This document shows positions 637 through 8,308 of a DNA stretch of 64,000 nucleotides, in pieces. The number at the start of each line of letters is the position of its first letter. Position 1 is the stretch's first letter. The position numbers were made by a program, and so were the translations under genes. A model generated the notes under the pieces. That model saw nothing but the letters and a program-made list of their open reading frames with translations. It had not been told where the DNA came from and searched no databases. The DNA is taken from NCBI RefSeq assembly GCF_001887775.1, contig NZ_CP015519.1, positions 1,178,001 to 1,242,000 on the forward strand. Reading direction: 5' to 3'. Source of the stretch: Syntrophotalea acetylenivorans. GTDB lineage: Bacteria; Desulfobacterota; Desulfuromonadia; Desulfuromonadales; Syntrophotaleaceae.

Positions 637-1092
637 TTATTTCTGCAAATGGAACTCCACCAAAAAGCTTCCTCCCTCAATCGAAAAGGGCATACATGTC
701 CCCTCGCTGTCGGTGAGGCAATCGATTTCATACTCTGCACCGCACACTACCGAAGGAATCGACAGCTTAAATTCCTGACCCTGTTCCGTCAAGTCGGACT
801 TGATACTACCGGCCACCATATTGGCCAACTCGCCAATGGCATCTTTCACATCATCGTCCACTTCCGTTACTTCCATCATTAAGAAACTACTGGTAATGAC
901 CAGCGCCGTAGGCTCAGGGAGGTGGATAGCCAGCATCCCCTTGCTGGCGCCCGCCATGCCGACAATGGCGGTAACAGAGTTTTCAAAATAATTGGATCTT
1001 TCGGTCAATGCCTCGCCAGGACTGGCTTCCATCATCAACATGGTCTGGAAGATTTCCTGGGTTGCCTGGCTAATACTGTTGCTCAAGTCCAC
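637..1092 (-). CDS. cheX: Chemotaxis protein CheX (CheY-P phosphatase)
   Basis: A 151-residue cytoplasmic protein of the CheX family, typical in length. The active helix reads GELANMVAG, with Glu88 and Asn91 in the E-x2-N arrangement used to position water on CheY-P. It lies 14 bases after cheY in the same operon, so it probably switches off that CheY. The window contains no CheZ. It is the last gene before the operon terminator. Confidence 0.85.
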   Translation of the reverse strand: MDLSNSISQATQEIFQTMLMMEASPGEALTERSNYFENSVTAIVGMAGASKGMLAIHLPEPTALVITSSFLMMEVTEVDDDVKDAIGELANMVAGSIKSDLTEQGQEFKLSIPSVVCGAEYEIDCLTDSEGTCMPFSIEGGSFLVEFHLQK

Positions 1093-1106
1093 AGATCAAC
1101 TCCTTA

Positions 1107-1478
1107 TCACAAAAGGCTCCCCAGGGTCTCCTGAATCTGGTCCGGGGTAAAAGGCTTTTTGATGCTACCGGCAGCGCCAAGGCTCCTGGCTTCATCAAGG
1201 ATATCCGCACCAGCTTCGGTGGTAATCATCACAACAGGAATGTCCTTGATCTTGTCATCGGTCTGCTTCTGCCGCAAAAACTCGATCCCGTCCATAACCG
1301 GCATATTGATGTCGCTGAGAATAATATCAACGGTTTCGCCAGCCAGAACATCAAGTGCAGCCTGCCCATCGCCGGCCTCCAGAATGGCATCGAAGTCGAG
1401 TCCAGCCTGCCGCAGCGAGCGAGTGACGATTTTTCTCATAGTGTTAGAATCATCAATGATAAGAACTTTTTTGCCCAT
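1107..1478 (-). CDS. cheY: Chemotaxis response regulator CheY
   Basis: A single receiver domain of 123 residues. Acidic pocket Asp9-Asp10, phospho-acceptor Asp56 in SDINMP, Thr86 and Lys108 in KKPF are all present. No output domain follows, as expected for a diffusible CheY that binds FliM/FliN at the motor. It is phosphorylated by CheA (5741-8308) and probably dephosphorylated by the adjacent CheX. It is the better of the two single-domain regulators here as the motor CheY, because cheX directly follows it. Confidence 0.88.
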   Translation of the reverse strand: MGKKVLIIDDSNTMRKIVTRSLRQAGLDFDAILEAGDGQAALDVLAGETVDIILSDINMPVMDGIEFLRQKQTDDKIKDIPVVMITTEAGADILDEARSLGAAGSIKKPFTPDQIQETLGSLL

Positions 1479-1539
1479 TATTTTCCCCTCTCAGATTGAC
1501 GGTTGGTAAAGATGTAACTCTAAAGCTCGTTAAAACCGT

Positions 1540-2001
1540 TCAGCTATCAAAAAACCCGTCCCCGGCCAAGACCAGAGAAAACAAATCGTTGTCTACTTGA
1601 TAATTCCAACGTTTCATTTCAAACGGACTGTCCTCTTGCCCATCGGTAATTTCCTCTGGCAGGCCCAGGCTGTAAGTTTGATCCCCGGGCAGATATGCGT
1701 TCAAGAAAAGCCCGGCAACCGTGTTGATTAGCTCACATACCATATCGAGCACCATCTGGTCGGAGATCTCTTCCTCGGGCATAATATAGACTGAAGATGC
1801 GATTTTTCGCAATAAAAGCTTAGGCATGCCAAGATAAAGCTCGCCCTGAATGGGGTCGTGAATCAACAACCTGCTGACTAATATCTCCTCTGCAGGATAG
1901 GTTTGCGCCCCTTCAGCTTCTAGTTCCACTTCCATAAAAGCCATATTCTCAAGGGTCGTGGACAAAGCGCTGAAAATATCCCGCTCCAGTTTTTCAGACA
2001 T
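1540..2001 (-). CDS. CheX/CheC-like chemotaxis protein
   Basis: I place the start at the second ATG (2001), because AGGGAG lies 6 bases upstream; an ATG 18 bases earlier (2019) overlaps the previous gene. This gives 153 residues. The helix CELINTVAGLFLN has Glu90 and Asn93 in the E-x2-N phosphatase pattern. The C-terminal 50 residues are less conserved in appearance. It is paired with the response regulator at 2016-2387, 14 bases apart, suggesting a dedicated regulator-phosphatase pair. The phosphatase role is inferred from family only. Confidence 0.72.
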   Translation of the reverse strand: MSEKLERDIFSALSTTLENMAFMEVELEAEGAQTYPAEEILVSRLLIHDPIQGELYLGMPKLLLRKIASSVYIMPEEEISDQMVLDMVCELINTVAGLFLNAYLPGDQTYSLGLPEEITDGQEDSPFEMKRWNYQVDNDLFSLVLAGDGFFDS

Positions 2002-2015
2002 ATTATCTCCCTTGT

Positions 2016-2387
2016 TCATGACAGTAGCGGCTTAAGGGCGTCCATCAGAACAGCCGGCGAAACGGGCTTATTCAAAACGCCAAAAGCTCCGAGAGAAAGC
2101 AACTCCTGTTCTTTGGCTGGATTACCGGCACTGGTGATCACCAGTACCGGAAGATCGTGTAAACGAGGGCTGCTCTTTACCCACTTGAGCAGGGTCGCTC
2201 CATCCATAACCGGCATATTCAGATCGGTCAACAGCAGATCGGCATCTTCCTCCTTGAGCAGAGAAAGAGCTTCACGGCCGTGTTCCGCTTCTACCAGCGT
2301 AGCCTCGCCCAGGCCGACAATCTCCAAGCAACGACGAATAAACATGCGCGCCGTTGCTGAGTCATCTGCGATGACGATCCGATTCAT
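2016..2387 (-). CDS. Single-domain response regulator (CheY-like)
   Basis: A receiver domain of 123 residues with Asp8-Asp9, phospho-acceptor Asp55 in TDLNMP, Thr85 and Lys107. No effector domain is attached. It sits between an HDOD protein and a CheX-like protein in the chemotaxis operon. It may be a second CheY, a phosphate sink, or a regulator acting through the HDOD protein; the sequence does not decide among these. Confidence 0.83.
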   Translation of the reverse strand: MNRIVIADDSATARMFIRRCLEIVGLGEATLVEAEHGREALSLLKEEDADLLLTDLNMPVMDGATLLKWVKSSPRLHDLPVLVITSAGNPAKEQELLSLGAFGVLNKPVSPAVLMDALKPLLS

Positions 2388-2403
2388 TCTTAAATTCCTC
2401 CTG

Positions 2404-3267
2404 TTAGCTTCTTAGTGACTCTTCCGCCTTACTGAATTCCTCTTCGGCGTTCAGAACGATTTCGGCAAGGGTAGTCGGCGACAAATCAAAAAACTCTTCA
2501 TATCCGGGATCAAGATGATATTTCAGACCGTCACTTCCCGTATTGCAACCGGCCATCATGGAAACAATATCACCAATATGTACGGCATAGACCAGAGGTT
2601 GCATGCACTCGATAGCTTCAGCGGGATGATGGTGGTGGAGTATTACCGCCTGCAATGATTCGGGCAACTTCCAATGACGAGCCATTTCGTAACCGACTTC
2701 GGTATGGTCGAGCCCGGCAAGGTCCTGTTCAGCCATCAGGTAGTCACTGACGGCTCCCTGTTCAATCTGACCGAGAGCTTCCTGTGAAGACTCTTTCCAG
2801 AATGTGGCAAAGATCGACTTACCGATGTCGTGCAGCAGACCACCGGTAAAGGCCAGGTCAAGATCGAAATCTCCTTTGGCATATCGGGCGACCTCCCGTG
2901 AAGCGATGGCGCTGAACAGATCATGGCGCCAGAGATCTCCCTGTTCGCCTTGATAGCCTTCAAGAGGCTTGCTCAACAACTGGCCGGTATTTTCCTGCAC
3001 CGCGATGCTGACGACCATACGTTCACCGAGATAGGAGAGAGCCCGATCGATAGAAGAAACTTCTTTAATCAGACCATAGACCGGGGAATTAACCGCCTTC
3101 AGCACCCGCATGGTCAAAGCCGAGTCGAATTTGACAATTTTGACGACATCCTCGAGTTCATGATCAGGGTCGGCAATCACCTGTAGCAACTCTAGAGCGT
3201 TAGATGAAAAAAGGGGCAATTTTTCAATCGCCTGGCGAACGGCCTCGCGGTCTACGATTTTGCTCAT
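2404..3267 (-). CDS. HDOD domain protein
   Basis: The preferred start is the ATG at 3267, preceded by AGAAGG; an upstream in-frame start would overlap cheD. The 287-residue protein has an HDOD domain (roughly 17-215), with PLFSSNALELLQVI near the start and an HD-like LLHDIGK at 144-150. HDOD proteins are cytoplasmic signalling proteins without proven enzyme activity. Many are linked to chemotaxis, motility or cyclic-di-GMP control. Its place between cheD and a CheY-like gene suggests it responds to that regulator. Exact function unknown. Confidence 0.8.
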   Translation of the reverse strand: MSKIVDREAVRQAIEKLPLFSSNALELLQVIADPDHELEDVVKIVKFDSALTMRVLKAVNSPVYGLIKEVSSIDRALSYLGERMVVSIAVQENTGQLLSKPLEGYQGEQGDLWRHDLFSAIASREVARYAKGDFDLDLAFTGGLLHDIGKSIFATFWKESSQEALGQIEQGAVSDYLMAEQDLAGLDHTEVGYEMARHWKLPESLQAVILHHHHPAEAIECMQPLVYAVHIGDIVSMMAGCNTGSDGLKYHLDPGYEEFFDLSPTTLAEIVLNAEEEFSKAEESLRS

Positions 3268-3278
3268 AATACCTTCTC

Positions 3279-3767
3279 TCACACTTCCCATTGCCCTCGC
3301 CCGGGGCAATTAACGATGACTTTACCGGTATCAGCGAACACGGCAACGGTTCGACTGTGGTTACCACCCACGTCTTCGGCCACAGGCCCCAGGCCAAAAG
3401 CCCAGAGTTTCTTTTTTATGGCGAGCACATTGCGTTTACCAATATTGAAGGTGTTGTTATTGTCCATGATCGAAGCGCCGCCGACCAACTTAACAACCAA
3501 CCCGCGACCATTAGCTGGCGAGCCGAGCTTGGCCATTTCCTGAATCAGCAGAGGCAGACCAAGATCGGCAAAATATCCGGGTCGTTGCCGGGCCTTGGCT
3601 TCATTGATACTCGAATCAGGTAGAGCTATGTGGACCATCCCGACGGCGTTGGAACGGGGATCAAGCACGATAGCCGCAACACAGGACCCCAGGGCAAACG
3701 TTTTGACCACCCCGCCAGGTTTTTTAGCAGCGCCGTAATCTCCTATTCCCAATATAATTTCACTCAT
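3279..3767 (-). CDS. cheD: Chemoreceptor glutamine deamidase CheD
   Basis: A 162-residue protein that deamidates glutamines on chemoreceptors and in some species is controlled by CheC. The catalytic triad is visible: Cys29 in ALGSCV, His46 in MVHIALP and Thr23. Length matches the family. Its start overlaps the cheB stop by four bases (ATGA), indicating translational coupling. No chemoreceptor gene is in the window, so its targets are encoded elsewhere. Confidence 0.92.
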   Translation of the reverse strand: MSEIILGIGDYGAAKKPGGVVKTFALGSCVAAIVLDPRSNAVGMVHIALPDSSINEAKARQRPGYFADLGLPLLIQEMAKLGSPANGRGLVVKLVGGASIMDNNNTFNIGKRNVLAIKKKLWAFGLGPVAEDVGGNHSRTVAVFADTGKVIVNCPGRGQWEV

Positions 3768-5696: not shown

Positions 5697-5748
5697 TGGT
5701 TCAAGGCTGGTTTATCTGGTTCAAAGCTGGTTTACTTGGTTCAAGCGG
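5697..5748. repeat. 20-base tandem repeat between cheA and cheR
   Basis: Two full units, tggttcaaggctggtttatc (5697-5716) and tggttcaaagctggtttact (5717-5736), and a partial third (5737-5748) that contains the cheA stop codon. The units differ at three positions. The array probably grew by slippage from the cheA 3' end and sets the spacing from the cheA stop to the cheR ribosome site. Confidence 0.8.
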
Positions 5749-8308
5749 TTTGTGCCTGCAGCTGACGACCTCGTCCAGCCCCTTCGGTAAGGTGCCCAAC
5801 ATCCAGAATCAAACAGACTTCGCCGTTGCCCAGAATGGTACAGCCCGAAGCAACACTGACATTCCCGATATATTCGGTTAGGCCTTTGATAACCGTCTGT
5901 TGCTGACCGACAATTTCATCGACGAGCAGGCAAATGGTATTATCCTGATGCTCAAGCACCACCAACACCCCATCGACAACCTGTTCAGAATCCGGCGTAT
6001 CTTGCAGGATTTTATACAAATGCTTCACCGGATAGAAACAATCCCGTACCCGCACAAGTTCCATGCCGTCAGGCATGACTGTAATCGCATCGGGGGTCGG
6101 CCGGAAAATCTCGCGAATAGCCAACAGCGGCAGGATGCATTTAGTCTCTCCTACCCGCACCAACATGCCGTCGATAATTGCCAGAGTCAGGGGAATCCGC
6201 AGGGTAATCCGGGTGCCCTCTCCCAATTTACTTGTCACCTCGATCTTACCCTTGATTTTTTCCAGGTTCTGCTTAACCACATCCATCCCGACTCCGCGGC
6301 CGGACACGTCGGTGATCTTTTCGGCCGTTGAAAAACCAGCCTGGAAGATCATATTGAACACCTCTTTGTCGCTCAACTGGGAGCCGTCACCCGCGACCAA
6401 TCCCTTGCTGATAGCCTTTTTCAGAATCTTTTCCCGATTCAGGCCGCGACCGTCATCCTCAACAATTATCCAAACTTCTCCTTCTTGATGCCGAGCCGAA
6501 AGCTTGACCACCCCTTTTTCCGGTTTGCCTGCGGCCACGCGCTCGTCCGGGGTTTCCAGACCGTGGTCCAAAGAGTTCCGCAACAGGTGCACCAGTGGGT
6601 CTGAGATTTGTTCGATAACCGTCTTATCGACCTCGGTTTCCTGGCCGAAGAGTTGAAGATCTACCTTTTTACCCGATTTAACGGACAGATCGTGCACCAG
6701 GCGAATCATGCGTCGGAAAAGGCCAGACACCGGGATCATGCGGATGATCATGGCCATTTCCTGCAGATCGCGTACGATCTTGCTCAAGTGCTGAGAGGCT
6801 TTATTGAAATTATCCAGTTCCAATCCCTCAAGGTCAGGACTACGCACCAACATATTTTCGGCGATAACCATTTCGCCGATGAGATTGATCAGATCGTCTA
6901 ATTTGCGCAAATCGACACGAATATCCTGGCGTACAACGGCGCTCTGCTTCGGTTTAGCAGCCTTTTTGGGAGCGGCTTTCTGTTGGACCTTAAGTGCTTC
7001 TTCCACCGCCTTGGCCTCGGCCTTGCCCATATCGACCAGTACTTCACCCAGGGGTTTGTTCTGAGATTCCAGGGCTTCGCGCACCGCTTCTTCCGAAGCG
7101 ACCCCCTTCTCGACCAGTATTTCCCCCAATGGTTTACCCTGTGCTTGCAGAGCCTGATCGACTGCTTCCTCGTCAACAACCCCCTGGTCGACCAGGATCT
7201 GCCCGAGCAGCGGGGCTTCTTCCTCTTTGGCAACAGGAGCCTCTCCGGTCATCAATGCTTCAAGCTGGGCCAAAGCGCTGTCCAGCTCATCTATCTCACC
7301 AGCGCCCCCCTGAGAAATATCGGCCACAGCAGACCGCAGCAGATCGAGAGCTTCCAGCAAGCAGTCCGCCGGTGCGTCCCCGTGCAAGATCCCCCCGCCT
7401 TTAACCTGGTCAAGCACTGTTTCCATTTGATGGCTGAGCTGTTCCATATGCCGATAACCGAAAAAACCGCAATTGCCCTTGAAACTATGAGCGTTTCGGA
7501 ACAGCGACCCGATCGCCTCTTCATCGAGAGGTGCCTCGTTCCAGGCCAACAGCCCCTCTTCGACATTCTGTAACAACTCGTCGGCTTCCTGAACGAACTT
7601 TTCCACCATCTCAGGACCGATCAGCATCGCCAATTCGTCCTCTGCCGAGGGGTCAGCATCGGAGTCCTGAACCGTGCTTACTTCTTCAGCTTCCGCAGGC
7701 TTTATTGCAGCCAAAGCCAGTGCGTCGCTCGCGGCCTGTTCCAGGCTGGCGGCAATTTCATCAGCGATCTCAGCCATGGCCTGATCATTCAGGTCGGCCT
7801 CCACCGTCTCCATGGCCTCCCGGGAAAAGTCACAGGCCTTGCACAGATGACTAACGTGCTCCGGCTGCATCTTGACCTTGCCGGCCCGGATCAGATCGAG
7901 CAGGCTCTCCGCGTGATGGGCAACCCGGGAGATGTTATCCAGCTCCAGAAAGCCAGCACTGCCTTTCATTGAATGGAACAGGCGGAAAATGGCATTCATG
8001 GTCTCGCCACTCCCATTTATCGACTCGAACACCTCGCAAGAGCGACAGTCTTCCGCCGATGTGCAATGCATACAGCTTTGCTGGCCTTCTTCCAGAAAGC
8101 CGGTGTGCAACCAGCAGGGATGGTCAATATTTTGATTGTGCCTCGAACAACTATCATTGCCGCAGGACATGGCCTGCCAACAGTCGACATTTTGACAGCT
8201 TTGTCCCAGCTCGATTATGGTCGGCTCGAGCTGGTCCAGCATATCCCGGCTTTCCTGGAGAAATTCGTTTATAATTTCAGCCTGTTCAGAAGAAATATCG
8301 TCGCTCAT
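5741..8308 (-). CDS. cheA: Chemotaxis histidine kinase CheA with two Hpt domains, Cys-rich insert and linker repeats
   Basis: 855 residues, longer than ordinary CheA (about 650-700). Order: Hpt1 with helix 1 at 8-35, a cysteine-rich insert (36-96; Cys at 38, 43, 50, 54, 65, 79, 82, 88, 91, two of them followed by Trp), then FHSMKGSAGF with phospho-acceptor His112. Hpt2 has His274 in AHSFKG. Three 26-residue repeats follow (LGxILVxxG, starting at 368, 394, 420), then dimerisation, ATPase (LRNSLDHG, DDGRG, GRGVGMDVV) and a C-terminal CheW-like domain. I see no P2 CheY-binding domain. It starts at 8308 after AGAGGGAC and is the first gene of the operon. Kinase function is firm; the role of the insert and repeats is unknown. 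Confidence 0.93.
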   Translation of the reverse strand: MSDDISSEQAEIINEFLQESRDMLDQLEPTIIELGQSCQNVDCWQAMSCGNDSCSRHNQNIDHPCWLHTGFLEEGQQSCMHCTSAEDCRSCEVFESINGSGETMNAIFRLFHSMKGSAGFLELDNISRVAHHAESLLDLIRAGKVKMQPEHVSHLCKACDFSREAMETVEADLNDQAMAEIADEIAASLEQAASDALALAAIKPAEAEEVSTVQDSDADPSAEDELAMLIGPEMVEKFVQEADELLQNVEEGLLAWNEAPLDEEAIGSLFRNAHSFKGNCGFFGYRHMEQLSHQMETVLDQVKGGGILHGDAPADCLLEALDLLRSAVADISQGGAGEIDELDSALAQLEALMTGEAPVAKEEEAPLLGQILVDQGVVDEEAVDQALQAQGKPLGEILVEKGVASEEAVREALESQNKPLGEVLVDMGKAEAKAVEEALKVQQKAAPKKAAKPKQSAVVRQDIRVDLRKLDDLINLIGEMVIAENMLVRSPDLEGLELDNFNKASQHLSKIVRDLQEMAMIIRMIPVSGLFRRMIRLVHDLSVKSGKKVDLQLFGQETEVDKTVIEQISDPLVHLLRNSLDHGLETPDERVAAGKPEKGVVKLSARHQEGEVWIIVEDDGRGLNREKILKKAISKGLVAGDGSQLSDKEVFNMIFQAGFSTAEKITDVSGRGVGMDVVKQNLEKIKGKIEVTSKLGEGTRITLRIPLTLAIIDGMLVRVGETKCILPLLAIREIFRPTPDAITVMPDGMELVRVRDCFYPVKHLYKILQDTPDSEQVVDGVLVVLEHQDNTICLLVDEIVGQQQTVIKGLTEYIGNVSVASGCTILGNGEVCLILDVGHLTEGAGRGRQLQAQTA

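Follow-up and report, generated by a model that had tools for sequence, protein, structure and literature searches.

CheA is usually viewed as a kinase that takes its orders from receptors. What is already known is the two-CW domain as a named NCBIfam family, which is not known to have an assigned function; what is new in this study is an apparently divergent form of this domain in the first Hpt domain (Hpt1) of CheA. For control of CheA through a cysteine, one report describes a Cys-Zn switch with a 3His/1Cys site in the receptor TlpD, which controls the CheA complex (PMC6715182). In the passages shown of a review of Geobacter chemotaxis, the word "insertion" is absent and an insert of CheA is unmentioned (PMC8396549). 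Literature on the two-CW domain, or describing it as an insert of CheA or HAMP, was not found in open-access papers, subscription papers being outside the scope of the search.

The window analyzed here is a stretch of 64,000 nucleotides from Syntrophotalea acetylenivorans (contig NZ_CP015519.1, positions 1,178,001 to 1,242,000). The cheA gene of the window and its parts are as follows:

5741 to 8308, minus strand: CheA, 855 amino acid residues, with two Hpt domains (Pfam domains and ORF)
8198 to 8302, minus strand: helix A of Hpt1, residues 3-37 (AF2 model)
8012 to 8200, minus strand: two-CW-like inserted cassette, residues 37-99 (missing from seven orthologues, present in 28)
7949 to 8008, minus strand: helix B of Hpt1, residues 101-120, with the phospho-acceptor His112 at 7973-7975 (HSMKG motif at 112 and AF2 model)
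7832 to 7843, minus strand: C156-x2-C159 in helix D of Hpt1 (in 36 of 36 rows, insert present or not)
7331 to 7612, minus strand: second Hpt domain (Hpt2), residues 233-326, with His274 and no insert (Pfam and motif)
6983 to 7207, minus strand: MshE-N-like repeats, residues about 368-442 (NF053729; the end at 442 set by eye)
5786 to 6928, minus strand: dimerisation, ATPase and CheW-like domains, residues 461-841 (Pfam)

The Hpt, H-kinase_dim, HATPase_c and CheW domains of this CheA were all above their Pfam cut-offs. Hpt1 matched PF01627 with 46.6 bits (cut-off, 24.6), and its His-x-x-K-G motif is H112-SMKG. At E 0.001, the two Hpt matches in the S. acetylenivorans genome were both within the CheA ORF and in no other ORF. 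The same genome contained eight matches to the MCP signalling domain versus one CheA. The cheA gene is head to head with an ORF of 800 residues that appears TPR-like by eye. The genes adjoining this ORF and cheA are presumably flgB, flgC and fliE, named by their sequences. On the same basis, we take the genes at 637-3309 to be a che operon for two CheY-like proteins, two CheX-like proteins and one HDOD protein, with the CheY-like and CheX-like genes presumably at 637-2387.

Two to three MshE-N-like repeats were observed between Hpt2 and the dimerisation domain, where NF053729 scored 72.5 bits (cut-off, 38) with its best stretch at residues 368-416. Such repeats were also found in most of the 17 CheA relatives whose sequences were displayed, insert-bearing or insert-free, and none was found in that of locus L055. 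In several relatives (L052, L064, L035, and L038) the repeats open with RLG, a motif with a role in c-di-GMP binding. Because LLG/PLG is found instead of RLG in CheA of the window, binding of c-di-GMP by its repeats is doubtful. Counting along the helices places C156-x2-C159 about level with His112 in the bundle, and this pair is a possible second thiol site.

A preliminary description of this stretch had proposed that residues 36-96 of CheA (8203 to 8021, minus strand) form a cysteine-rich insert in Hpt1, and the ORF, strand and interval that it gave were correct. An insertion is indeed present, but alignment with insert-free relatives, which read, for example, ELGQN-TDNETINAVFRLFHSMKG at the insertion point, favours residues 37-99, that is, about 63 extra residues between helix 1 and the His112 helix. 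All nine cysteines described are present, at residues 38, 43, 49, 54, 65, 79, 82, 88, and 91, the third being C49 and not residue 50 as previously given. Thus, nine cysteines are found in 61 insert residues versus nine in the other 794 residues of CheA (binomial p 3e-8).

A search of 58 genomes with CheA residues 1-200 yielded 28 insert-spanning matches (the own genome included), seven insert-free orthologues, 22 weak matches (E 2e-10 at best) and one genome without a match. C43, C49, C54, C65, C79, C88, and C91 were invariant in all 28 insert-bearing orthologues, and a second sample, which overlapped the first, kept the same seven in each of its 26 insert-bearing rows. Given this invariance and the binomial p value, the cysteine cluster is not a product of chance. 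C38 was found in 26 of the 28 and C82 in five, all from one genus: the window itself and four further genomes. The preliminary description had named poor conservation of the cysteines in related CheA proteins as a point against its reading; the conservation found here did not refute that reading, although one of its nine, C82, was not conserved. It had also noted the CW pairs at 43-44 and 65-66, which are present and invariant, as well as a double C-x2-C arrangement. Both C79-x2-C82 and C88-x2-C91 exist in the window, but only the latter is general because C82 is not conserved. The cysteine motifs of the insert are:

8177 to 8182, minus strand: first CW, C43-W44 (invariant in 28 of 28)
8162 to 8164, minus strand: C49 (invariant in 28 of 28)
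8147 to 8149, minus strand: C54 (invariant in 28 of 28)
8111 to 8116, minus strand: second CW, C65-W66 (invariant in 28 of 28)
8072 to 8074, minus strand: C79, which is the fifth cysteine and is out of its usual place (14 residues from C65, versus 8 in most of the other two-CW domains examined)
8036 to 8047, minus strand: C88-x2-C91 (invariant in 28 of 28)

In addition to the cysteines, W44, W66, R56, L67, G70, G75, N98, and G99 were invariant in 28 of 28, and many insert positions outside the cysteines and glycines were variable. Retention of cysteines and glycines among many variable positions is also compatible with a structural or docking role, in which Zn2+ would serve folding only and the insert would offer a binding surface to the receptor array or to a CheY, CheX or CheW protein and would not be a sensor. 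A sequencing artefact was ruled out, as the insert occurs in many genomes, and a disulphide domain was rejected by judgement for a cytoplasmic protein.

The AF2 model of CheA residues 1-180, made with 36 rows, had a pLDDT of 86.5, with block means of 74-90 within the insert. The prediction, which had been proposed earlier, returned an Hpt bundle in which the insert is flanked by helices 3-37 and 101-120. Together with the insert-free relatives, these flanking helices confirm the earlier view that Hpt1 is split after helix 1 and before the helix of His112. The P1 domain of Thermotoga maritima (1tqg), which has no insert, aligned to the model over all of its 105 residues with an rmsd of 1.3 Å and a Z of 17.0, which is to be compared with a Z of 13-14 for common helical bundles by the same tool and with up to 16.4, close to 17.0, for designed bundles. 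The best rows of a Foldseek search with residues 1-180 were designed helical bundles and CheA P1 domains, the latter from E 0.004, and nothing reached E 0.001 or better. Because 1tqg aligns in full, the insert is modelled as a body added at the helix A/B end, with the Hpt fold around it undisturbed; this superposition tests the bundle and not the insert. A position at the end of the bundle that leaves the predicted Hpt fold intact is likewise what a docking surface could occupy.

In the preliminary description the cysteines were thought to be close to the phospho-acceptor, which was not borne out: the cassette is instead at the end of the helix pair, and His112 comes 11 residues into helix B, which at 1.5 Å per residue would be about 16 Å. 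Given these 11 residues along helix B, a direct contact between insert and His112 does not follow. The insert predicted alone had a pLDDT of 48.5, which is too poor for a fold to be claimed. Finally, a PDB sequence search with the insert profile returned no solved relative, its best E of 0.18 being at the level of chance.

The likeness of the insert to the two-CW domain, which the preliminary description had noted, was assessed with profiles. When the window insert alone was scanned against NCBIfam, only NF045718 (two-CW) was matched, with an E of 2e-4 and 21.6 bits against a curated cut-off of 35. NF045718 also matched 16 of 16 CheA inserts tested (best E 9e-6), and hhalign of these 16 inserts against 16 two-CW domains taken from proteins other than CheA gave 98.3% with an E of 1.6e-14 over 60 columns. 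These comparisons establish homology at the profile level, so that the noted likeness stood as to homology and fell short of the family cut-off, which all six non-CheA domains tested exceeded (35.9-44.3 bits). Similarly, of the two models against which the region had been suggested for searching, Hpt was matched above its cut-off and two-CW below. Because its score is under the 35-bit cut-off and its fifth cysteine is displaced, the insert is filed as a divergent two-CW relative and not as a formal member.

NF045718 was not among the best 25 of the 41 families listed for whole CheA. In a six-frame search of the genome it matched the insert with 15.1 bits (E 0.097), a loose level at which four of 14 control genomes also had matches. 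A second two-CW copy was not found in this genome at E 1 with NF045718 or at E 0.001 with the insert profile. Four other NCBIfam families matched one member each among the 16 inserts (best E 0.058). Pfam DUF4501 reached only E 8.5 in the whole-CheA scan and nothing in the insert scan, and a few scattered, weak Pfam matches of other inserts, among them WCCH in one of 16 (the best, E 0.0067) and VP_N-CPKC in three of 16 (best E 0.02), were taken as chance driven by cysteines.

A profile of the 16 CheA inserts was run over 395 genomes of the phylum and identified 95 places in 78 of them, eight of which were CheA with insert. The 64 places examined (L117-L180) comprised two CheA and 62 of the 87 others; their choice was not random and leaned towards long frames and towards high scores, so that the short ones (about 115-310 residues) mostly fell among the other 31. 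Most of the 62 non-CheA cassettes were in frames of 550-820 residues. Pfam found a histidine-kinase ATPase domain in four of five such proteins and PAS domains in the fifth, which was cut short. Many cassettes part "...LTRxADEISxGNLD" from "GDEIxxLAxSFxxM...", the two halves of HAMP. Positions 1-30 of the Pfam HAMP profile were found upstream of the cassette in five of five proteins tested (E 2e-5 to 0.03) and positions 32-52 downstream in three (E about 0.01-0.02), matches that are weak, nine of the ten half-pieces being under the Pfam cut-off or unmatched. At E 0.1, HAMP was the commonest family on each side (39 of 58 upstream, 22 of 59 downstream, with one duplicate and two CheA dropped and sides under about 25 residues left out), with the weak scores that half-domains necessarily give.

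The two-CW domains at the HAMP connector of five sensor kinases of the phylum (L119, L122, L136, L159, and L176) were all above the cut-off (36.2-44.3 bits). Other placements, assigned by eye, were the N-terminus in L123, the C-terminus in L138 and a linker in L131, and the ten matches over the cut-off in a class-wide search were all in frames of 92-133 residues. The HAMP position of two-CW is thus frequent and not universal. In L124, L125, and L129, a variant was observed in which CF replaces the second CW and the fifth cysteine follows it at a distance of 17; L124 is a GGDEF protein by eye.

Because two-CW is often found within the HAMP connector, a place analogous to the A/B loop of Hpt, it looks like a portable cytoplasmic cassette between signalling helices. 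Its recurrence between HAMP helices suggests a common role as a metal-dependent clamp between paired signalling helices, and the HAMP-connector cassettes thereby lead to a first hypothesis for the family, that it acts between such helices. This setting also bears on the docking role without sensing. Many other two-CW domains are in signal-transmitting HAMP, and there are two-CW proteins encoded by short ORFs (92-133 residues); both facts fit a ligand-dependent module at least as well as a scaffold. We regard a purely structural or docking insert as possible, although somewhat doubtful.

The seven insert-free orthologues of the first sample (L034-L040) were 56-60% identical to CheA of the window over residues 98-195 and 62-78% over residues 1-40, and homologues of the 800-residue ORF, flgB and flgC were found at six of the seven. 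The second sample had 54 loci, partly from the same genomes: 25 insert-bearing (L041-L065), 28 insert-free (L066-L093) and one unscored (L094). The same three neighbours were beside cheA in 20 of the 25 insert-bearing loci; L045, L063, and L064 were without them, and L055 and L059 had the 800-residue ORF only. Among L066-L093 they were found in L085 only, and many of these loci read cheA-cheR-cheB, with no flagellar genes within the DNA examined (at most 4 kb upstream). Given the shared neighbourhood, at least seven insert-free genes are positional orthologues; the remaining ones are presumed orthologues from sequence. The insert is a clean modular presence or absence in the same gene. A ready natural experiment is thereby at hand, since some orthologues have the cassette and others lack it, and at least seven of those that lack it share the gene neighbourhood.

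By title, 18 of the 25 insert-bearing loci belong to Desulfuromonadales or its genera and five to Deltaproteobacteria only, the other two being MAGs, one of Desulfobulbaceae (L052) and one labelled Acidobacteriota (L063). The insert-bearing CheA of L063 was nested among Desulfuromonadales-type sequences in both trees described below, from either transfer or mis-binning.

The insert-free CheA of L085 (4001-4360) has the leading SCQ of the insert-bearing form and not the rest (GQSCQDASGDPETINAV). The Hpt tree placed it, on a long branch, together with L055 and L058, both of which bear the insert (94/66, not starred). Given the retained SCQ and this grouping, L085 is probably a case of insert loss, with SCQ as the deletion scar. 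At the position of SCQ, L066 and L067 read ISRSADDW and L073 reads ISRQADDW. Four changes of insert state were needed on the kinase-core tree (53 of 60 sequences; the short cores of L046, L061, L064, L068, L070, L081, and L085 dropped) and three on the Hpt tree (54 of 61; without L061, L068, L081, L092, L093, L076, and L090). A single clade of insert-bearers was not rejected (AU p 0.116), and both analyses contain several long branches. For these reasons, one gain followed by later losses is the preferred history and not a demonstrated one. The insert has probably been lost at least once, and given this probable loss (L085) the cassette looks like an old, dispensable accessory.

Across 10 same-genus pairs, dN/dS was 0.065-0.20 for the insert and 0.017-0.093 for the flanks, ratios that are rough because dS is above 1 in some pairs. 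The insert evolves faster than its flanks and is under purifying selection. Faster evolution and the probable loss with a scar in L085 could also be expected of a tolerated passenger, that is, an old insertion in a permissive loop that is kept folded and has no role in CheA. However, seven cysteines, two tryptophans and several glycines were kept in 28 of 28 over deep divergence and dN/dS is well below 1, which renders such a passenger highly improbable.

Most insert-bearing relatives are named Desulfuromonadales, which are known as anaerobes. Their habit would suit a redox sensor, in which an Fe-S cluster or a cysteine-Zn switch turns Hpt1 off on oxygen or oxidants and steers anaerobes from oxic zones. 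However, Malonomonas (L083) and Pelovirga (L091) are among the relatives that lack the insert, and they are anaerobes too; moreover, no Fe-S family was detected by Pfam in 16 inserts. A Cys-Zn switch is reported to govern a CheA complex elsewhere (TlpD; PMC6715182). On balance, a dedicated redox sensor is unlikely, and redox sensing by the insert may be regarded as a putative role only.

Our main reading, to which we assign a probability of about 0.45, is that the insert is a divergent two-CW cassette in the A/B loop of Hpt1, where it acts as a metal-dependent knob that sets phosphate flow through Hpt1. In the reduced cytoplasm, the cysteines of the insert would likely bind metal (an Fe-S cluster or Zn2+), and the cassette likely forms a small rigid knob that caps the A/B end of the four-helix bundle. 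Occupancy of this knob by metal, or its redox state, could plausibly alter A/B packing or the docking of the His112 face on the ATPase domain or a response regulator, and could thereby set the share of phosphate that passes via Hpt1 versus the insert-free Hpt2. Control of phosphate flow by the insert is thus a plausible, putative function. As a conserved cysteine cassette in a phosphotransfer domain, it would be a cytoplasmic input downstream of every receptor (eight MCP matches, one CheA). Such divided flow is testable owing to the insert-free Hpt2 and to the pairs of CheY-like and CheX-like genes in the operon. A broader proposal is that two-CW is a portable metal/redox cassette between paired helices (HAMP AS1/AS2 and Hpt A/B), that it turns Hpt1 of this CheA into a sensor, and that a single cytoplasmic signal would thereby bias or overrule every receptor and split phosphate between the two Hpt domains; we put it forward as a speculative and rather doubtful extension.

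Similar to the P1/Hpt domains of described CheA proteins (1tqg and 1i5n), Hpt1 of the window has the predicted fold and the His-x-x-K-G motif. Different from them, it carries an insert between helices A and B. Compared with NF045718, the CheA insert has both CW motifs in register and six cysteines in the usual register: the second is +6 from the first, the third +5 from the second, the penultimate +23 from the second CW cysteine and the last +3. It differs in its fifth cysteine, +14 after the second CW cysteine and usually +8, in the lack of G-T-x-C and of K four before the final CxxC, and in its location within an Hpt domain. That K was invariant in 16 aligned non-CheA two-CW domains and is S84 in the window; the K and the +8 spacing are family features as seen in this analysis and not in NCBI's text. 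Among the 64 domains, a cysteine was +8 after the second CW cysteine in 48, with none in between in five, and the penultimate cysteine was +23 in 50. Accordingly, the aligned sequences describe two-CW as a family of six near-constant cysteines and one mobile cysteine, the CheA branch having the mobile one fixed elsewhere and C38 usually added.

Similar to the HAMP-connector domains of membrane histidine kinases (L119, L122, L136, L159, L176, and others), the CheA insert is cytoplasmic and between two helices of a signalling bundle. The host of the former is HAMP and not Hpt, and those five are above the two-CW cut-off. CZB is the name of the zinc domain of chemoreceptors such as TlpD; a Pfam scan of CheA at E up to 10 listed seven families, and CZB was not one of them. 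The zinc domain of TlpD would share with the insert its function, control of a CheA complex by cysteine and metal, and differs in its 3His/1Cys site and in its location in the receptor, versus the kinase for the insert of the window (PMC6715182). The Cys-Zn switch of TlpD is the nearest mechanism found in print (PMC6715182).
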